Part shown: piece by piece, positions 6,337 to 23,768 of the stretch | Position numbering within the stretch: position 1 is the first letter of the stretch | How the letters are laid out: every line of letters starts with the position of its first letter | Source of the DNA: a virus | Virus record (IMG/VR): IMGVR_UViG_3300030389_000410 | Location: 1-23,768 of that record | Length of the DNA stretch: 23,768 bases | Direction: 5' to 3' (one strand) | The notes under the pieces: model-generated | Databases searched by the model: none | Seen by the model: the letters and a program-made list of their open reading frames with translations, nothing else | What the model was told of the DNA's origin: nothing | Position numbers and translations under genes: made by a program

Positions 6337-8832
6337 ATGGGTCTTGTATCAAGATCAATCCCAACTTTATTAAGAGGGGTTTCACAAGGATCTGAATCAA
6401 CAAAACAAGCTGATCATGCTGATATACAGGATAATGCTAATAGCGATCCTGTATTAGGTCTTACAAAGCGTTCTGGCAGCCAGTTTGTAAGTAAATTAAT
6501 TGCTAGTGGAACGCAGATAGCAAATAGTCATGTAAGAATGATTAATAGAGATCTTAATGAAAGATATGTTGTTTTATTAACTACAAATAATCTAAGAGTT
6601 TTTGAATTAGATGGTACAGAACTTACAGTTAATAAACCTGATGGCGTAAATTATTTATCTTGTACAGATCCAAGACTTCAATTAAAAACTATAACTATTG
6701 CTGATTTTACTTTTATCGTTAATACAACTGTTACCACTGCAATGGATACAACCGTTTCAACAGGTAACGTTACACAGGCAATAGTTTTTTTTAATCGTGT
6801 AACAGATAAAACTACTTATACAGTAAAGGTTGATAATGTAGTAGCTACAAAGGATACGTCAAATGATGATCCTCTTAGTACCAATACTGTTGCACTATCT
6901 ATAGCATCAACTTTAAGTTCAGCTTTAACTGGTTTTACTATTGCTAGAAATGGTCCAGTATTACATATAAAGAAAAATGATAATTCTGATTTTACTGTGG
7001 AGTCTTCTGATACTCAAGGTAATACTCAAATAACAACTGTAAAAAATACAGTACAACAATTTACAGACTTACCAGCAGTCGCACCTAATGGCATGGTAGT
7101 TGAAGTAATAGGTGATGAATCCACAAACTTTGATAATTATTACGTTAAATTTGTTACTAATAATTCCAGTGGTGTAGGTGTTTTAGGTGAAGGGCAATGG
7201 GAAGAATCAGTAGAAGCAGGTATAAAATTTAAGTTTAATTATGACACCATGCCACATGTATTAGTAAGACAGACTGATGGTAACTTTAGATTTGCAAGAG
7301 TTGATGGTGATACTTATGCCGTAAATAATGTTTCTTTTACTTTGCCTAAATGGGGGGAACGAACTGTTGGTGATGAAATATCAGCACCAGATCCATCATT
7401 TATCGGATCAAAAATAAATAATGTTTTCTTTTTTAGAAATAGATTAGGATTCTTAGCTGATGACAATGTAATACTTTCAAGAGTATCAGAGTTCTTTAAT
7501 TTCTTTCCAGAAACAGTTTTATCAGTAGTAGACAGTGATCCTATAGATGTGGCAGCTTCTCATACAAAAGTAGCTATTCTTAAAAATGCTGTAAACATGG
7601 GTGAAAAGTTAATATTGTTTTCTGATCAAACACAATTTGTTCTTACATCATCATCTGATTCCTTAACACCTAAAACAGCTAACGTAGTTGTTACAACAGA
7701 ATTTGAATCAACAGATGAAGCTGCTCCTGTAGGTTCTGGTAGTTCTATTTATTATCTAACAAAAAAGGGTAACTTTGCTGGTGTAAGAGAATATATATCG
7801 CAAGGAAATATTAATGTAAAAGATGCTTCAAATATAACTATTCATATTCCAAGACTAATACCAAGTGATATTTTTAAAGTTGCTGTTTCTACTAATGAAG
7901 ATGTATTGGTTTTATTAGGTGCAACAAATCCTAACGTGCTTTACATTAATAGATGGTTATATGGATCAAAATCAGAAAAGATATTAAATGCATGGTTTAC
8001 ATATACTTTTGATCCAAGCAGAGAAATTAAAAATATAGATTTTATTGGTACTGATTTATTTATAGTAACGGATAGGTCTATATTGTTTAATGATTTAGGT
8101 GCAGAAGTGATTTTAGAAAAAATACCTTTTGCGTCAGATTTTAAAGAACCTAATGCTGATTTTGAATTTCATTTAGATCGTAAAATTACAGAAGCAACTG
8201 CTGGTGTTTCCATTGCTTACAACAGTACTACTAAAGTTTCAACTATTACTGTGCCATATAAATTACATGTCAAGATGGAATTTATTGGAAGATATTTATC
8301 ATCAACAGAAACAAGCACTTATGTTGATGCTTTAGGTGTTACACAAACTTTAAAACCAGGACAAAAGTTAGTTTCTGATAATTCTATAAATGGTCTTACA
8401 TCCACAATAACTATTGCAAATGCAGATGTAAGAAATAGTAAATTTATTATTGGAGAACCTTTTGAAATGCACTATAGATTTTCATCTCAACGTCTTACAG
8501 AATCATCAGGAGGACAAAGAAGTGGTGAAATTATTAGCGGTCGATTACAACTAAAACATTTTTATATTAAATTTGAAGATACTGGATTTTTTAAAGTAGA
8601 AGTAACACCTAGTCAAAGAGATACCAGTACACATAAATTCACTGGTAATGTCATAGGTACAGCATCAAATGTTATAGGACAGATAAGTTTAGAGACAGGT
8701 ACATTTAAAGTACCAGTTATGAGTAGAGCAGATAGAGTGACAATAGATGTTAAAAATAATACTTTTCTACCAACAATCTTATCAAGTGCTGAATATGAAG
8801 CTATGTTCCATATGAGAAGTAGACGTATTTAA
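6337..8832 (+). CDS. gp12: Tail tubular protein B (nozzle), T7 gp12 family
   Basis: An 831-residue beta-rich protein near the length of T7 gp12 (794). The N-terminus GLVSRSIPTLLRGVSQGSES with NANSDPVLGLTKRSGSQFV is the family hallmark. Downstream, AVNNVSFTLPKWGERTVGDE, FFFRNRLGFLADDNVILSRV and the SEFFNFFPETVLSVVDSDPI region match the conserved central part. The family makes a hexameric nozzle at the tail tip, to which fibres attach and through which DNA leaves. The gene begins two bases after gp11 without a Shine-Dalgarno sequence, and its stop overlaps the gp13 start by one base. Confidence 0.95.
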   Translation: MGLVSRSIPTLLRGVSQGSESTKQADHADIQDNANSDPVLGLTKRSGSQFVSKLIASGTQIANSHVRMINRDLNERYVVLLTTNNLRVFELDGTELTVNKPDGVNYLSCTDPRLQLKTITIADFTFIVNTTVTTAMDTTVSTGNVTQAIVFFNRVTDKTTYTVKVDNVVATKDTSNDDPLSTNTVALSIASTLSSALTGFTIARNGPVLHIKKNDNSDFTVESSDTQGNTQITTVKNTVQQFTDLPAVAPNGMVVEVIGDESTNFDNYYVKFVTNNSSGVGVLGEGQWEESVEAGIKFKFNYDTMPHVLVRQTDGNFRFARVDGDTYAVNNVSFTLPKWGERTVGDEISAPDPSFIGSKINNVFFFRNRLGFLADDNVILSRVSEFFNFFPETVLSVVDSDPIDVAASHTKVAILKNAVNMGEKLILFSDQTQFVLTSSSDSLTPKTANVVVTTEFESTDEAAPVGSGSSIYYLTKKGNFAGVREYISQGNINVKDASNITIHIPRLIPSDIFKVAVSTNEDVLVLLGATNPNVLYINRWLYGSKSEKILNAWFTYTFDPSREIKNIDFIGTDLFIVTDRSILFNDLGAEVILEKIPFASDFKEPNADFEFHLDRKITEATAGVSIAYNSTTKVSTITVPYKLHVKMEFIGRYLSSTETSTYVDALGVTQTLKPGQKLVSDNSINGLTSTITIANADVRNSKFIIGEPFEMHYRFSSQRLTESSGGQRSGEIISGRLQLKHFYIKFEDTGFFKVEVTPSQRDTSTHKFTGNVIGTASNVIGQISLETGTFKVPVMSRADRVTIDVKNNTFLPTILSSAEYEAMFHMRSRRI

Positions 8833-9284
8833 TGGGGTATTTAAGAAAATCAAATTTAAATGATCTTAATTATGTTGCAAACAACATGAGAATTATGGAC
8901 AAAATTGAAGCTTATTATCAAACAGGAAATCAACCAGAAGAAGCATTACGACTAGCTTATTTATATAGTCAGACAACTATGGCAATAGCTGATGACAATG
9001 ATAGTCCTATTGGTTTATGTGGTGTTGTAGCTGATGGTTGTATATGGATGGTAGCTACAGATGAGTTGTTTAATAATAAAAAATATAAAATACAACTTAT
9101 AAGAGAAGGAAGGAAATGGGTAGACAGCCTGTTGAAAAGTTATAATCTGCTATACAATATGGTATATGCAGAGAATCTATCTGCTATAAAGTGGTTAAAG
9201 TCTTTAGGTTTTACTTTTATCAACTACCACGAAGAATATGGAAAAGAAAGTAAACCATTCTACGAATTTCTGAGGATCTCTTAA
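8832..9284 (+). CDS. gp13: T7 gp13-like protein with acetyltransferase-type (GNAT) fold
   Basis: A 150-residue protein between gp12 and gp14, as T7 gp13 (138 residues). Length, position and pattern suit the gp13 family (DUF2833): MGYLRKSNLNDLNYVANNMR at the start, a beta-strand pair SPIGLCGVVADGCIWMVATD in the middle, and a late NLLYNMVYAENLSAIKWLKS followed by LGFTFINYHEEYG. The last part, asparagine-led helix then Leu-Gly-Phe-strand, is typical of GNAT folds. In T7 the protein is needed for virion assembly; whether this one has enzymatic activity is unknown, and I see no clear acetyl-CoA pyrophosphate loop. It starts in a TAATG overlap. Confidence 0.85.
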   Translation: MGYLRKSNLNDLNYVANNMRIMDKIEAYYQTGNQPEEALRLAYLYSQTTMAIADDNDSPIGLCGVVADGCIWMVATDELFNNKKYKIQLIREGRKWVDSLLKSYNLLYNMVYAENLSAIKWLKSLGFTFINYHEEYGKESKPFYEFLRIS

Positions 9285-19148: not shown

Positions 19149-19423
19149 TCATAGAAAAAATAGATAGTGTTTATTCTTTATATCCAACCGCAGTAACTGT
19201 ATCTGGTACAGAGGATAATTTTACTGCTGTTGATAAGGATGGCAATTCAATAAGTATTAACATGGACAATGTAAATGCTGACTATGCTTCTAAAGAGTAT
19301 AAAAACAAAAGAGAAAGAGAGTATCCTCCTGTGGTCGACCAGTTGGATGATATATACCATAATGGCATAGATGCTTGGAAAGCTACTATCAAAACTATCA
19401 AAGACAAATATCCTAAACCATGA
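19145..19423 (+). CDS. Small fibre-associated protein (YPPVVDQLDDIYHNGIDAW motif)
   Basis: A 92-residue protein. Residues 1-50 are a small beta domain (SVYSLYPTAVTVSGTEDNFT), and residues 55-92 hold REREYPPVVDQLDDIYHNGI followed by DAWKATIKTIKDKYPKP. The Tyr-Pro-x-x-x-x-Gln-Leu-Asp-x-x-Tyr-His-x-x-x-x-Ala-Trp helix is widespread in small proteins encoded beside phage tail fibre genes (XkdW-like or fibre-assembly type); I infer a fibre chaperone or cap. GGAG at 19133-19136 is eight bases from the ATG, giving a good ribosome binding site, and the gene overlaps both neighbours by four bases. Confidence 0.78.
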   Translation: MIIEKIDSVYSLYPTAVTVSGTEDNFTAVDKDGNSISINMDNVNADYASKEYKNKREREYPPVVDQLDDIYHNGIDAWKATIKTIKDKYPKP

Positions 19424-20622
19424 CTGCACAAATTAAACTAAAACATAGTGGTGGTAACGGTGTAATTATAGAAGCACCTGCTAGTAACCCCGCATCAGAT
19501 AAAACTATTGCTTTACCAAGTACAGAGTCTGGAGTATTTGCAACAAAAGATTCTGCTAATAGTTTGCAAAACGTAACTGGTATTAATGGCGGACAGCTTG
19601 GCAATCGAAACTTAATAATCAACGGAGCTATGCAAGTGGCCGCTAGGGGAACGTCAGCAACAGGAAAAACTACTAGCGGAGTTTATAGTACTGATCGTAT
19701 AAATCTTACTATTGGTAATGCAGGGACTTGGACTGTTTCTCAAGATAGTGATTCTCCTAATGAATTTGCAAAAAGCACTAAATTCCAATGTACAACAGCT
19801 AATGCATCTTTAGGCACAGGTGCTTTTCTATTATTAGGTTACAGATTAGAAGGACATGATGTACAATCTTTAGCCAAAGGAACTTCTAGTGCAAAAACAT
19901 TTACAGTATCTTTTCATGTTAAATCAAACAAAACAGGAACATATGTTTTAGGAGTTAATGATAGAGATAACAGCAGAAATAATAGTAAACCATACACAAT
20001 TAATGTTGCTAATACTTGGGAAAAGAAAACTATTACTTTTGAAGCAGATACATCTGGTGCATTAGATGATGATGCAAATGAATCTTTAAGATTAGATTTT
20101 TGGTTAGCAGCAGGAACAGATTTTACAAGTGGTTCTGCTGTTACAGGTTGGGAGTCTACTACAAATGCTAATCGTGCTAAGAATTTAAGTGTGAATTTAG
20201 CTGATAATACAGCAAATAATTGGTATATTACGGGATTGCAGTTAGAAGTAGGCTCCGTGGCAACGGATTTTGAGCATAGGTCATTTGCAGAAGAGCTTGA
20301 TTTATGTCAAAGATACTTCACACAAGTAAGAGGTGGTATTGGTGTTAATTCTACAACTGCTATACACACTGGAGTTTTAAGATATAAACCTATGAGAGCA
20401 AACCCATCAATAAGCAAAGGAACTGGTAGTACTTATAACTATGGAAATATGATCAACGCAGGATTTACTTCAACAGCCACACCAACTTTTTTTAAAAATG
20501 ATGGATTAAAAGGATATTCTTGTTATACACTTTCAGGTTTTACTAGTTTAGTCCAAGGTGATAATTTGCGTGATGAAGGTGAAGGTACTAGTGCTACATT
20601 TGATTTAAGTGCGGAGCTTTAA
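19420..20622 (+). CDS. Tail fibre / receptor-binding protein, copy A of a duplicated cassette
   Basis: A 400-residue protein starting MTAQIKLKHSGGNGVIIEAP, whose N-terminal strand region (residues about 10-45, KTIALPSTESGVFATKD) is a connector module common in marine phage fibres. The body starts at GNRNLIINGAMQVAARGTSA near residue 62 and is a beta-sandwich of carbohydrate-binding type (SFHVKSNKTGTYVLGVNDRD, NTWEKKTITFEADTSG). It ends that domain with TGLQLEVGSVATDFEHRSFA and EELDLCQRYF. A C-terminal receptor-facing region ends in DLSAEL. The body matches the 20798 protein throughout, while both ends differ. ATGA overlap with the preceding gene. Confidence 0.88.
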   Translation: MTAQIKLKHSGGNGVIIEAPASNPASDKTIALPSTESGVFATKDSANSLQNVTGINGGQLGNRNLIINGAMQVAARGTSATGKTTSGVYSTDRINLTIGNAGTWTVSQDSDSPNEFAKSTKFQCTTANASLGTGAFLLLGYRLEGHDVQSLAKGTSSAKTFTVSFHVKSNKTGTYVLGVNDRDNSRNNSKPYTINVANTWEKKTITFEADTSGALDDDANESLRLDFWLAAGTDFTSGSAVTGWESTTNANRAKNLSVNLADNTANNWYITGLQLEVGSVATDFEHRSFAEELDLCQRYFTQVRGGIGVNSTTAIHTGVLRYKPMRANPSISKGTGSTYNYGNMINAGFTSTATPTFFKNDGLKGYSCYTLSGFTSLVQGDNLRDEGEGTSATFDLSAEL

Positions 20623-20624
20623 TT

Positions 20625-20798
20625 ATGACTATTACTTACAAAAAATTTAAAGACCCTTACGGTAACGTTGTAACGTCAGCTATTAATAAATTTATTGATG
20701 GTGTACATGTTCTTTGTTTACCATTTGACGAGGCGAACACCGATTACCAAGAGTATTTAGAATGGGCTAAAACTAATACAGCAGAGGAGGCTGATTAA
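20625..20798 (+). CDS. 57-residue fibre-associated protein, copy A
   Basis: Starts MTITYKKFKDPYGNVVTSAI and ends with DEANTDYQEYLEW, then AKTNTAEEAD. The C-terminal Asn-Thr-Asp-Tyr-Gln-Glu-Tyr-Leu-x-Trp motif is common in tiny proteins next to marine phage fibre genes. It begins two bases after the fibre stop (TAATTATG), and its stop overlaps the next fibre start (TAATG). The same motif recurs in the 21895 gene, showing that fibre and small protein were duplicated as a unit. It may be a fibre-specific chaperone or tip cap; this is inferred from co-occurrence. Confidence 0.8.
   Translation: MTITYKKFKDPYGNVVTSAINKFIDGVHVLCLPFDEANTDYQEYLEWAKTNTAEEAD
20786..20790 (+). promoter_or_regulatory. Shine-Dalgarno GGAGG for second fibre gene
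   Basis: GGAGG lies in the last codons of the 20625 gene, seven bases before ATG 20798. It is one of the few strong ribosome binding sites in the operon and suggests that this fibre has independent translation. Confidence 0.6.
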
Positions 20799-21898
20799 TG
20801 TCTGAAATAAAAGTCAACAGTATTAAAGGAGTAAGTGCTAGTACGGCTGCCATCAGTATTGATAATAGCTCTGGGACTTGCACTGCCAATATTACTAATA
20901 ACCTAAGTAATCGTAATTTAATAATAAATGGGTCACAAATTGTTAGTCAAAGAACTACATCAGCAACAGGTAAAACTACAACAGGATATTATTGCACAGA
21001 TAGATTTCGGTTTGTTAATAATAACATTGGAACTTTTACTTTGGCACAATCTACAGATGCACCTAGTGGATTTGCAAAAAGCTTAAGACTTGATTGTACT
21101 ACTGCTGATACTTCTATTGGTGCTGGTGATTATCTTTCAGTAGATCAAGCAATTGAAGGTTTTAATGTTCAACAATTAGATTACGGATTATCTTCGGCTA
21201 AAAGTATTACAATATCTTTTTATGTAAAAAGCACAACAACAGGTACTTACACACTTGAAATTTATATGAATGATGGAGATTATTTTAATTCAAAAACTTA
21301 TACTATTTCTTCTGCTAACACTTGGGAAAGGAAAACTATTACTTTTACAGGTAATACATCTAATGCAATAGCTGATGATAATACAAGAGGACTGACTTGT
21401 AATTTTTGGCTTTCTAATGGAAGTAATTTTGAAGGTGGAACATTTAGCGATGGAACTTGGCATAATACCACTAATAGAAGAGTTCATTCATCCCAAGTTA
21501 ATATTGCCTCAAGTACTAATAATGATTGGTCAATTACAGGAGTTCAATTAGAAGTAAGCAGCGTTGCAACAGATTTTGAGCATAGGACATTCGGTCAGGA
21601 GCTTGCTTTATGTCAGAGGTATTTCTATAGATGCCAAGATAGACTGATAGGTAATGCACTTAATGCCTCGGACTTTTACAATCCAAGATTAGATCATCCT
21701 GTAGAAATGAGAGCATCACCTAGTCTTTCTAATGGCTCGTTCACGGCACATTCTGGTAATAATGGTTCACCAGTTATAGGTAACACAAGATTTGTTGGTG
21801 GTGGTGGTACTTTATCGGTTGCTATTCATAATCAAAACAATAACTGGAGTTCTGGTGCTTGGATTAAACTTACAGGAGACATCTCAGCAGAATTATGA
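20798..21898 (+). CDS. Tail fibre / receptor-binding protein, copy B of a duplicated cassette
   Basis: A 366-residue protein starting MSEIKVNSIKGVSASTAAIS, an N-terminal connector type different from that of copy A. From NRNLIINGSQIVSQRTTSAT (near residue 38) it aligns with copy A through YYCTDRFRF, SISFYVKSTTTGTYTLEIY-like strands, NTWERKTITFTGNTSNAI and TGVQLEVSSVATDFEHRTFG to QELALCQRYFYRC. The distal region (about 275-366) is unrelated except for the end DISAEL, which parallels DLSAEL of copy A. This is the expected pattern for duplicated fibres whose receptor-facing tips diverged. It has a strong GGAGG, and its stop overlaps the next gene (ATGA). Confidence 0.88.
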   Translation: MSEIKVNSIKGVSASTAAISIDNSSGTCTANITNNLSNRNLIINGSQIVSQRTTSATGKTTTGYYCTDRFRFVNNNIGTFTLAQSTDAPSGFAKSLRLDCTTADTSIGAGDYLSVDQAIEGFNVQQLDYGLSSAKSITISFYVKSTTTGTYTLEIYMNDGDYFNSKTYTISSANTWERKTITFTGNTSNAIADDNTRGLTCNFWLSNGSNFEGGTFSDGTWHNTTNRRVHSSQVNIASSTNNDWSITGVQLEVSSVATDFEHRTFGQELALCQRYFYRCQDRLIGNALNASDFYNPRLDHPVEMRASPSLSNGSFTAHSGNNGSPVIGNTRFVGGGGTLSVAIHNQNNNWSSGAWIKLTGDISAEL

Positions 21899-22041
21899 CT
21901 TACACTTATAAACTAATAAAAGATTCAAATTCAATTATGCGTTCTGATAATACCTGTATTTGTAAAGACGAAGCAAACACCGATTACCAAGAGTACCTTG
22001 CGTGGGTAGCAGAGGGAAATACACCCGAAGCTGCTGATTAA
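21895..22041 (+). CDS. 48-residue fibre-associated protein, copy B
   Basis: Starts MTYTYKLIKDSNSIMRSDNT and ends DEANTDYQEYLAW, then VAEGNTPEAAD. It is a homologue of the 20625 product: both begin MT(I/Y)TYK and share the C-terminal motif; the DNA for that motif (21967-21995 against 20727-20755) differs at only two of 29 positions. The N-terminal half is shorter by about nine residues and carries two Cys (Cys-Ile-Cys). It overlaps copy B of the fibre by four bases. The gene is followed by a 39-base gap with a hairpin. Confidence 0.8.
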   Translation: MTYTYKLIKDSNSIMRSDNTCICKDEANTDYQEYLAWVAEGNTPEAAD

Positions 22042-22080: not shown

Positions 22081-22380
22081 GTGACGTACAAAGGTGATAG
22101 ACCTATAATAAGCAGTAATACAGCTATACTCATCACTGACATAGCTCTTATTATTGCAAGTTTTATCATGTTTAATAAAATAGCTAACATCCTTTCTATT
22201 ATTTCATTCCTGATGGTGTCGTCAATGAGTGTAGGGGCTTACTTAGCAATTCAATATATGAAATCACCAGAGTTTGAACGTAACCTTAAAAATAAAGTTA
22301 TGGGTGATTTACAAGATAAAATGAAAAACGAAATACCAAAACAATTACCAAAGTTTAGTGGACCTTCATTACCTATGTAA
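22081..22380 (+). CDS. Small membrane protein with two transmembrane segments (GTG start)
   Basis: A 99-residue protein, MTYKGDRPIISSNTAILITD at the start, with hydrophobic segments at residues about 14-31 (TAILITDIALIIASFIMF) and 37-59 (ILSIISFLMVSSMSVGAYLA). A charged amphipathic C-terminal tail ends PKQLPKFSGPSLPM. GTG at 22081 is the only conventional start giving the full first segment; an ATG at 22050 is in another frame and closes after 15 codons. The stop overlaps the next start as TAATG. I associate such a small two-segment protein next to an Ile-Pro-rich one with cyanophages. Position after the fibres would also allow a holin; two segments fit, but nothing specific supports it. Confidence 0.75.
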   Translation: MTYKGDRPIISSNTAILITDIALIIASFIMFNKIANILSIISFLMVSSMSVGAYLAIQYMKSPEFERNLKNKVMGDLQDKMKNEIPKQLPKFSGPSLPM

Positions 22381-23030
22381 TGGAAATACCAGAAATAAAA
22401 ATACCGCAGATAAATATACCAGTACATAACCCCTATCAAGTATTAAACGTACCTCTACCATCGTTAAAATTACCTGGATGTGTAAAGTATCATAGAGATG
22501 CTTCTCCAAAGAATACGGCCTTATATAACGATGATCCGAGGGGAACTGTAATTAGTTGCCCTTATGGTTCAATGCCTACTTTTGAACCTTTGTTATACAA
22601 CAGAAGAAAAATACAAATAATAGAAACTAAGCAACAATCACAACAAAGAAAACAAGAACCAACACCACAAGTAAAAACTAAAAAACCTAAATTACCAGAA
22701 AAGAAGAAAGAAGAGTTTTTTATAAAATGCCCAGGTGATAAAGATCAAAGAGTTGGAGATTTTAGAAACTCTAAAAAATTAGAGGTTGTCGTATCTCATA
22801 AATTATCAGATGATAAAAGTGAGTGCATAACACTCTATGAAGACACAAAGTTCATCGACCAATATCTACCTTCAGCTAAAGCTGCTTCTACTGCTGCTGG
22901 TATTGCTCTGGTCGCTGCTACTACTCCATTACTTATCAATGCTGTAAAACCATTAGTAAAGAATTTAGTAAAAAAAGTTACTTCTCGGAAGTCAAAGAAT
23001 GACGATGAGGTAAAACCTGACCCTTCTTAG
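22380..23030 (+). CDS. Ile-Pro-rich protein with C-terminal membrane anchor
   Basis: A 216-residue protein starting MEIPEIKIPQINIPVHNPYQ, with Ile-Pro or Val-Pro dipeptides spaced through the first 30 residues. The middle is Lys/Gln-rich and probably disordered (about 75-110). A small Cys-containing domain follows (FIKCPGDKDQRVGDF to SECITLYEDTKFID), then one transmembrane helix at about 170-189 (STAAGIALVAATTPLLINAV) and a basic tail (KNLVKKVTSRKSKNDDEVK). Cys occur near residues 34, 60, 116 and 151. Starting in TAATG, it appears cotranslated with the preceding membrane protein. Its 3' end overlaps the opposite-strand gene by 53 bases. Function unknown; I associate the type with cyanophages. 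Confidence 0.75.
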   Translation: MEIPEIKIPQINIPVHNPYQVLNVPLPSLKLPGCVKYHRDASPKNTALYNDDPRGTVISCPYGSMPTFEPLLYNRRKIQIIETKQQSQQRKQEPTPQVKTKKPKLPEKKKEEFFIKCPGDKDQRVGDFRNSKKLEVVVSHKLSDDKSECITLYEDTKFIDQYLPSAKAASTAAGIALVAATTPLLINAVKPLVKNLVKKVTSRKSKNDDEVKPDPS

Positions 23031-23622
23031 GTACAACTTCTATATCCTTACAAATGTTGTAATAAGGACTGTCTTTTGCAAACTGAATACCAGCCAACTT
23101 CTTCTCACCACAGTGACGTAATCTTGCCATATGCCAGTCTAGTTCTAGGTTTTTAAGCTTTTGTTTCTGTATGTTTATCTGTGTCTGTGCTGCTTCTTTA
23201 CATTGCCTACCTAGTTGTCTATCTAAAGGAATAGAAAAGTTTAGAGTTATACCTGTACCAACTGCATAACTATCTTTGTTAGTACCAGAATAGTTTTGTT
23301 GATAATATAAAATATCTCCTGGATTATCAGGTGTACCATCACCTATAGCATTACCATCATCATCAAAGTCACCAACTATATCAGTCTGGTCATATACAGG
23401 TGTTTCATATCTATGATCAAAAGGTTTTCTATAGTTACTATTGAAGGTAGTAAAAGGAGTTATAGTCATCATTGCACCCTGACAAACAATATTTCCTCCA
23501 TACTGATTAGTATGAAAACTACCGTTGTTTACATTCCAGTTCTGATTAGTAACAGATCCACTGTTACTTTGACTTACAGCATTGGCTAAAACCTTTACTG
23601 GACTAAGTATTATTGTGAGAAT
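22978..23622 (-). CDS. Secreted or periplasmic protein of unknown function, minus strand (start uncertain)
   Basis: Read on the minus strand, a segment LTIILSPVKVLANA|VSQ looks like a signal peptide with an Ala-x-Ala cleavage site. Then come an Asn/Ser/Thr/Gln-rich stretch (SQSNSGSVTNQNWNVNNGSF), an acidic loop DFDDDGNAIGDG resembling a calcium-binding DxDxDG loop, and a helical C-terminus with QCKEAAQTQINIQKQKLKNL, ARLRHCGEKKLAGIQF and SPYYNICKDI. The last pattern recalls cyanophage proteins of unknown function. No ATG, GTG or TTG precedes the signal segment until TTG 23754, which would run 145 bases antiphase through the upstream gene. I give ATT 23622 as a placeholder; a start error, unusual start or frameshift is possible. 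Coding below about 23610 is the secure part. It converges with the 22380 gene. Confidence 0.65.
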   Translation of the reverse strand: MLTIILSPVKVLANAVSQSNSGSVTNQNWNVNNGSFHTNQYGGNIVCQGAMMTITPFTTFNSNYRKPFDHRYETPVYDQTDIVGDFDDDGNAIGDGTPDNPGDILYYQQNYSGTNKDSYAVGTGITLNFSIPLDRQLGRQCKEAAQTQINIQKQKLKNLELDWHMARLRHCGEKKLAGIQFAKDSPYYNICKDIEVVPKKGQVLPHRHSLTSEK

Positions 23623-23768
23623 ACAGAGGTAGTAGTAGTAACGGATTCCGTTGTTATATCTCTTGTTATTGACGTTACGTTTTGTAGACCCGGACCAGAA
23701 TATGTCTCTGTGAATTGGAAAGCATTTCCTGATGTTGGATTTGTAAGAGTCCAATTTGGTTTTGTTGT
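23610..23768 (-). CDS. C-terminal end of a Thr-rich protein, minus strand (partial)
   Basis: Reading in from the right edge on the minus strand gives 52 residues and then TAA (23612-23610). It contains NWTLTNPTSGNAFQFTETYS, GPGLQNVTSITRDITTESV and the end TTTTSVFSQ. The composition (Thr/Ser/Asn-rich, regular hydrophobic spacing) is that of an extracellular or virion-surface beta protein. The overlapping frames look less natural: the same-strand one starting at TTG 23754 is Arg/Lys/Tyr-rich, and the plus-strand one has no start. Its stop lies within the signal region of the downstream minus gene, in the zero frame relative to the downstream minus-one frame. Family not identified; the N-terminus is outside the window. 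Confidence 0.6.
   Translation of the reverse strand, partial: TTKPNWTLTNPTSGNAFQFTETYSGPGLQNVTSITRDITTESVTTTTSVFSQ

Follow-up and report, generated by a model that had tools for sequence, protein, structure and literature searches.

We examined the end of a 23,768-nucleotide (nt) stretch of viral DNA, positions 1 to 23,768 of IMG/VR record IMGVR_UViG_3300030389_000410 (hereafter, the window), where a preliminary description made from the letters alone had placed four genes in an envelope-acting module. The window comprises bases 1-23768 of a 25500-base virus record and is followed there by an assembly gap of 10 Ns (record bases 23769-23778). That the phage is T7-like shows in its portal, which shares 76% identity with the portal of Prochlorococcus phage P-SCSP2, and in its tail fibre, where Pfam recognises the T7 tail-fibre N-terminal domain. 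At the window's end, plus-strand P0002 and P0003 face minus-strand P0001 and P0004. The four genes are real, each matching a phage protein family in PHROG or Pfam profile scans, and the features considered here are as follows:

22168..22380, plus strand: P0002, a 70-residue protein with probably one membrane segment, T4-GC 414 "plasmid stability" family (phrog_568, tblastn, start analysis)
22380..23030, plus strand: P0003, Ile-Pro-rich, 216 residues, T4-GC 234 family (phrog_570, E 1.1e-39)
22978..23768, minus strand (listed open reading frame, 22978-23754): P0001, exported, T4-GC 235 family (phrog_848, E 2.4e-70; phrog_1755, E 9.4e-57)
23584..23634, minus strand: putative signal-peptide hydrophobic core and AxA-like cleavage site of P0001, YYLCILTIILSPVKVLA, spanning the DUF6322 stop codon at 23610-23612
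23610..23768, minus strand: P0004, the C-terminal 52 residues of an exported Thr-rich DUF6322 protein, T4-GC 236 (PF19847, phrog_650)

Sullivan et al. (2010; PMC3037559) described a cyanomyovirus cassette of unknown function composed of T4-GC 218, 219, 234, 235, and 237 and a "plasmid stability" gene. Annotated records equate P0003 with 234, P0001 with 235, the DUF6322 protein with 236, a second exported protein with 237, and a DUF6450 protein with 218, and they tie P0002 to the 414 family. The window therefore holds a podovirus version of that cassette.

The module genes recur together. P0001 was convergent with P0003 and within 300 nt of it at 70 of the 80 P0003 loci on viral contigs; nine loci had too little flank and one had another spacing. 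This repeated arrangement exceeds chance, and the co-occurrence in other cyanophages that a module implies is thereby borne out. When 50,697 phage records were searched by tblastn, P0001 was found in 429, P0003 in 195, and DUF6322 in 404, and the organism tally of these matches consisted of Synechococcus/Prochlorococcus phages, cyanophages, "marine virus" single-cell records, and one uncultured phage. Eleven named phages were searched whole. Both phrog_1755 and DUF6450 matched P-SSP7, P-SSM2, MED4-184, Syn33, Syn1, Syn9, and P-HM1, seven phages chosen for a prior P0001 or P0003 match, and neither these two nor DUF6322 matched S-PM2, Syn5, P60, or PSS2. The DUF6322 Pfam model gave the same pattern except in P-SSP7, where gp44 matched phrog_650 (E 1.7e-32). 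S-SM1 also carries P0001, as judged by a phrog_1755 search that was positive in P-SSP7 as well; a phrog_1755 search of S-CBS4, Pf-WMP4, and A-4L, which had no positive record of its own, gave no match. A pattern scan of host genomes yielded nine loci (by title, seven metagenome assemblies, one single-cell Prochlorococcus, and one isolate). Nine P0001 relatives (L265-L273) lie in assemblies labelled bacterial or archaeal (Nonlabens, Formosa, Lewinella, Euryarchaeota, Prochlorococcus, and others), perhaps as binned cyanophage contigs.

Start of P0001 inside the DUF6322 gene

The P0001 leader starts inside its neighbour's coding sequence in several lineages. In the window the P0001 frame is open through the last base, and the upstream-extended frame amounts to 326 residues in all. 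The TTG at 23754 is not the start, as a start codon stood 11 codons upstream in 69/69 relatives (68 ATG, 1 GTG), these being the loci, among 80, whose match ran from the query's first residues. The corresponding start in this record, at ~23787, would therefore fall in or beyond the 10-N gap, inside the Thr-rich gene. For a wider sample, 154 locus ids were reduced to 117 distinct mature sequences, 109 of which had a DUF6322 frame of at least 80 codons. In 107 of these 109 loci the start (106 ATG, 1 GTG) was in the -1 frame and gave an overlap with DUF6322 of 166-178 nt, stop codon included, so most of the P0001 leader is encoded by the DUF6322 C-terminus. Over the last 55 DUF6322 codons the P0001 frame was open in 109/109 loci and the third frame in 0/109; when synonymous codons were resampled (19 of the 109 loci), the P0001 frame stayed open with a probability of 0.0015-0.051. 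Overlaps of this kind are already annotated in Syn9, Syn33, and P-RSM1 (166 nt), P-HM1 (178 nt), and S-SM1 (172 nt). Elsewhere, P0001 is unannotated in Sf-CH11 (L002:6001-6789) and S-PRM1 (L167:3001-3756) and annotated in shortened form in Syn1, S-TIM5 (L169:3001-3867), and S-WAM1, which may be because of the overlap. Among the papers listed in our literature searches, none named DUF6322, DUF6450, or these PHROGs.

P0001 might instead be a fusion protein, made with no internal start by a programmed -1 frameshift during translation of the DUF6322 message; this would agree with the -1 register of P0001 and with the 55 codons over which both frames are open in every locus. However, the start codon keeps one place in 107/109 loci although the DUF6322 codon whose last base is the first of the start codon varies (Thr 50, Lys 34, Ser 19, Arg 4; third base A in 106 and G in 1). 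Furthermore, a Shine-Dalgarno-like core precedes the start in 96/107 (AGGAGG in 53), and a stop codon stands immediately before it in 23/107. In P-SCSP2, an ordinary signal peptide begins from an ATG, with an overlap of only 56 nt; in P-SSP7, the start is a GTG at 112 nt. A frameshift origin is thus very improbable.

The minus-strand gene had been described as encoding a signal peptide, and a signal-peptide-like segment was confirmed in P0001. A pattern search placed an AxA-like match after the hydrophobic core in 107/107 loci, which argues for cleavage of the leader. The region before the core is 50-67 residues long (median, 52), with a net charge of +3 to +11 (median, +8). Cys 91, 185, 215, and 235 were invariant among 15 sequences.

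Several points count against this account of the overlap and leader, and with it against the envelope role weighed below. Related loci in the start and overlap counts are not independent, and the Shine-Dalgarno-like sequence doubles as code for conserved DUF6322 residues. Two of the 109 loci (L051 and L056) have no ATG, GTG, or TTG at the internal-start site, and MED4-184 has no comparable internal start. The 107/107 AxA count came from a permissive pattern, with at least one apparently wrong parse (L238); when the segment was cut 8 residues before the motif, the count was 61/107, the six misses listed for this variant having lost the final A of VLA to the cut. The AlphaFold model of mature P0001 was poor (predicted local distance difference test score, pLDDT, 63), and its Foldseek and VIA-align matches were not significant. 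P0001 amino acids change faster in the overlap than in the rest (0.39 vs. 0.17 of pairs differ; in the distant group, 0.55 vs. 0.30), and DUF6322 third-base change is only mildly lower there (0.356 vs. 0.459; distant, 0.489 vs. 0.550). Since the leader evolves this fast, selection seems to act to preserve the start codon and an uninterrupted frame, and not a fixed leader sequence; what is kept in the leader seems to be the start, the open frame, and a hydrophobic export signal.

Two further observations concern P0001. In MED4-184 (L004:4335-4931), the P0001 match crosses a TGA, and another start or a change may apply. A match of P0001 to the Pfam OEP (outer-membrane efflux) family fell below the cut-off (E 0.09) and was not used as a claim.

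The other module proteins and their surroundings

The Thr-rich partner gene that had been described is present, belongs to the DUF6322 family, and is cut by the window's end: the 52-residue P0004 fragment scored 57.4 bits against PF19847 (curated cut-off, 30.6), and the N-terminal remainder, which has a signal-peptide-like start of its own, is encoded in the same record beyond the gap (L005). Also past the gap on the minus strand are a second Thr-rich protein with a signal-peptide-like start (phrog_564, T4-GC 237 family) and a small membrane protein that matched Pfam DUF6450 at 33.7 bits (cut-off, 25), whose gene matched the 218 genes of Syn9 and Syn1 by tblastn. The signal-peptide-like starts of DUF6322 and 237 were judged by eye. 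These two proteins are related (tblastn E 5.7e-5 and 9.9e-6 in P-HM1; 12-locus database). An AlphaFold model of the mature DUF6322 protein, from relative L007, reached a pLDDT of 82 and contained strands of 24 and 25 residues; its closest shapes in the PDB were phage tail chains and beta-barrel pore stems, none of them significant. A viral structure library returned five rows at E <0.001, namely two marine/Synechococcus phage proteins of unknown function and three that were nameless. The structure alignments comprised 71 and 70 sequences.

The DUF6450 protein has a charged tail, with one hydrophobic segment in this record and two in P-SCSP2. Just past the DUF6450 gene, at L076:3703-3933, is a 76-residue protein whose N-terminal hydrophobic segment and coiled-coil-like tail give it a build like that of spanins or XhlA-like proteins.

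P0003 carries the C-terminal anchor that had been attributed to an Ile-Pro-rich protein, with a single hydrophobic segment at residues 168-186 by hydropathy and then a basic tail. Cys 34 and 60 were invariant among 11 relatives, and Cys 117 and 149 were nearly so. Within the window, its 3' end overlaps that of P0001 by 53 nt.

The first gene had been read as encoding a two-segment protein, which now appears doubtful. The listed frame, 22081-22380, begins at a GTG (22081) that is not conserved in relatives, so a 70-residue, one-segment protein is likelier, and the start is probably at 22168. In tblastn alignments, Met stood at the residue of window bases 22168-22170 in 80/80 distinct relatives, and in 29 of the 80 the aligned sequence preceding this Met contained a stop codon (of 148 aligned loci, 8 were short of the spot and the remainder gave 80 distinct sequences). 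A second count, whose motif required the Met and was hence silent on it, found a stop within 33 codons upstream in 43/64 relatives, none in 19, and a contig end in 2; a Shine-Dalgarno-like sequence preceded the ATG in only 11/64. P0002 matched phrog_568 weakly (E 1.5e-4; E 0.001 for a slice from 22180) and the CPPG_00154 region of P-RSM1 by tblastn (E 2.6e-5). Neither P0002 nor Syn9 gp162 had a Pfam match, and P0002 matches in PADLOC (E 0.0086) and NCBIfam (E 0.057) were both weak. At L076, a small, very basic, secreted-looking protein (7253-7522) is encoded beside P0002, and two extra small genes lie between P0002 and P0003.

Other features of the record lie apart from the module. Tandem tail-fibre-like copies at 19420-20798 and 20798-22041, both phrog_4492, form a duplicated fibre cassette before it; each copy is followed by a short acidic protein, with the stretch EANTDYQEYL in common. 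The GNAT-like protein at 8832-9284 matched Pfam Phage_T7_Gp13 at 37.7 bits, with weak acetyltransferase matches. A promoter and terminator scan of the record's end was uninformative (11 promoter-like sites vs. 14.3 expected; 3 terminator-like sites vs. 1.4).

Possible role at the host envelope

The make-up of the module points to a job at the envelope: three of its proteins carry export signals and three are small or tail-anchored membrane proteins, none with a recognised enzyme domain. The preliminary description of an envelope module thus holds insofar as the module is conserved and its parts look envelope-directed. Considering the linkage of the genes, the export and membrane make-up, the position in P-SSP7 and P-SCSP2 (where T7 has its lysis genes), the spanin-less phages that carry the module, and the DUF6322 model, we tentatively favour (probability about 0.4) a cyanophage-specific envelope module whose likeliest job would be breaching the outer membrane of the host when it lyses, as a substitute for spanins. 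In such a scheme, the DUF6450 protein could act in the inner membrane like a holin or timer; DUF6322 and 237, with their two predicted long beta-strands, and P0001 could come together as a barrel or tube on the periplasmic side of the outer membrane; and P0003 could bridge to the inner membrane. Together they would open the outer membrane when the cell lyses, and the gene overlap would couple P0001 production to that of DUF6322. A fuller version is rather unlikely, namely that several cyanophage body plans share a spanin-independent outer-membrane opener in which DUF6322/237 hairpins form the barrel or tube and P0001 joins it, with the tail-anchored Pro-rich and DUF6450 proteins bridging to the inner membrane and the P0001 leader, encoded inside its partner's last strand, tying the production of the two.

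In a survey by Kongari et al. (2018; PMC6139136), no spanins were found in 91 of 677 phages, and by our own count of its Table 10, 24 of the 91 infect cyanobacteria. P0001 is present in seven phages on its spanin-less list: P-SSP7, P-HM1, P-SSM2, Syn1, Syn33, Syn9, and S-SM1. The survey asks whether another route through the outer membrane exists for such phages and proposes that spanin function could reside in an outer-membrane protein or in an inner-membrane protein bearing a C-terminal segment; P0003 together with P0001/DUF6322 would make a spanin-like pair of this sort. In that survey, spanins are most often laid out as exported genes that overlap in different frames (of 677 phages, 228 overlapped and 182 embedded).

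A number of findings oppose a lysis role. The survey's authors instead suggest that the outer membrane of cyanobacterial hosts may be fragile (PMC6139136). No P0001 match was obtained in seven phages on its spanin-less list (S-PM2, Syn5, P60, PSS2, S-CBS4, Pf-WMP4, and A-4L); the module is therefore no general answer to lysis among cyanophages, and because so many cyanophages are on the list, the correlation with spanin-less phages is weak. A regular expression for the lipobox matched 0/109 DUF6322 sequences (three of them cut at contig ends) and 1/107 P0001 sequences. The module proteins matched no enzyme or endolysin family, the DUF6450 protein had no holin-family match (above cut-off in Pfam, only DUF6450; none in NCBIfam), and P0003 has no signal that would place its N-terminal, Cys-bearing part in the periplasm. 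For the DUF6322 model, the best Foldseek E was 0.02 and the best Z 4.2, with nothing in the PDB at E <0.001. In Syn33, Syn9, P-RSM1, and S-SM1, the cassette lies near regA and hsp20, in the neighbourhood of replication genes, and not among late genes. Upstream of 237, the late-promoter-like [CA]TAAATA was present in only 4 of 10 isolates, with TTAAATA in one more, a count that had no matched intergenic control. As to timing and lysis in isolates, P-SSP7 is reported to transcribe three classes of genes one after another, in a description of the classes that does not name the module genes (PMC9860041), and a lysozyme is reported in P-SS2, with nothing further on lysis in the relevant passages (PMC2784084).

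Superinfection exclusion or surface remodelling is possible but on balance unlikely. Here the exported proteins would coat or plug the periplasm or outer membrane of the infected cell, and so keep related phages from adsorbing or delivering their DNA, or would protect the envelope during a long latent period. Exclusion genes typically encode exported or membrane proteins without enzyme domains, as the module does, and are usually variable and single. In contrast, the module is a multi-gene set that keeps its order across very different phages. The strand switch in the window and the place near regA/hsp20 in several myoviruses would fit expression apart from late genes, whereas the P-SSP7 module genes share one strand with tail and terminase genes. 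An insignificant structural neighbour of the P0001 model was the surface-exclusion lipoprotein TraT (Foldseek E 0.9); a PADLOC scan gave one weak match (P0002, E 0.0086) and none for the other five proteins.

A place in the virion, as part of a fibre, tube, or collar, or another role in adsorption is improbable for these proteins. The module comes after the tail genes in the window, and the best PDB neighbours of the DUF6322 model included the upper tail of phage Andhra (E 0.02), the phi29 collar/tail (E 0.038), and the P68 tail (E 1.1); the viral library added a lower collar protein, itself predicted (E 0.036). However, signal peptides on three proteins would export them from the cytoplasm, where virions assemble, and members of these families are encoded by T7-like podoviruses, by T4-like myoviruses, and by MED4-184, which we take to be of siphovirus type, and the tails of these phages differ. 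The S-SM1 virion was analysed by mass spectrometry (PMC3037559), and the S-SM1 record (92 kb of 174 kb) applies "virion structural protein" to SSM1_041 and to none of the seven cassette genes, which are "hypothetical" or "plasmid stability". For S-CREM1, 14 virion proteins have been reported (PMC9964418). Homologues that proved to be virion parts, which the preliminary description would have held against a lysis or exclusion role, were not seen, a weak test that draws on the labels of the S-SM1 record only.

That the "plasmid stability" gene marks a mobile or addiction cassette, a selfish unit with its neighbours as cargo, is least probable of all, given that P0002 is a small membrane protein with no Pfam match and only weak PADLOC and NCBIfam ones, and that P-SSP7 and P-SCSP2 keep the core with no P0002 tblastn match at E <1 in the P-SSP7 stretch and no phrog_568 match in the scanned P-SCSP2 neighbours.

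For the question of how Prochlorococcus and Synechococcus phages open the outer membrane, the module offers a core of few genes to test in culturable phages such as P-SSP7, P-SCSP1, and Syn9.

Comparison with known systems

As in the cyanomyovirus cassette, homologues of 234, 235, 236, and 237 stand together, with 234 convergent with 235-236-237; a 218 (DUF6450) gene lies just past the window, and a 414 homologue is recognised by its weak phrog_568 match. The present version differs in occurring in a T7-like podovirus and in having no 219 between P0002 and P0003, which abut at 22380 (the rest of the record was not searched for 219). Moreover, DUF6450 heads the minus-strand group here, whereas it goes with 234 in cyanomyoviruses. 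The cassette section of the cyanomyovirus paper (PMC3037559) does not take up the fact that 235 starts within 236.

The two very long, Ser/Thr-rich antiparallel strands of the DUF6322 model resemble the beta-barrel pore stems of lysenin and the aerolysin family and the tail tubes of phi29 and P68. The likeness is at the level of shape only (Z <=4.2, Foldseek E >=0.02), and no alternating hydrophobic belt was seen in the strands. Two-component spanins (lambda Rz/Rz1, T7 18.5/18.7) resemble the module in being two exported products of overlapping genes in different frames (PMC6139136). They differ in that the module has no lipobox and apparently an AxA-like site where they would have a plain N-terminal anchor, and the DUF6322 model is beta-rich and not a coiled coil.

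The nearest podovirus counterparts are P-SSP7 gp42-gp45 and P-SCSP2 PSCSP2_00035-00038, which comprise Pro-rich tail-anchored (phrog_9426), DUF6450-, DUF6322-, and P0001-type proteins and in which 235 also starts inside 236. Their overlaps are shorter (112 nt, with GTG, and 56 nt, respectively), no 237 was recognised in them, and all the P-SSP7 module genes are on one strand. The phrog_9426 proteins, gp42 and 00035, share the build of P0003 (Pro-rich, with a C-terminal hydrophobic segment and a basic tail); hhalign probabilities of 34 and 13 were not significant, and kinship with P0003 is suggestive only. In both phages, the four genes lie between tail-fibre-like and terminase genes. In T7, the holin gene (17.5) and the overlapping Rz/Rz1 genes (18.5/18.7) sit between the tail and terminase genes, so that the module shares with the T7 spanins a place between the tail and large terminase genes. 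The genes had been described as not part of the T7 plan, which these P-SSP7 and P-SCSP2 homologues contradict; indeed, the module is placed where T7 keeps its lysis genes and is therefore not foreign to that plan.

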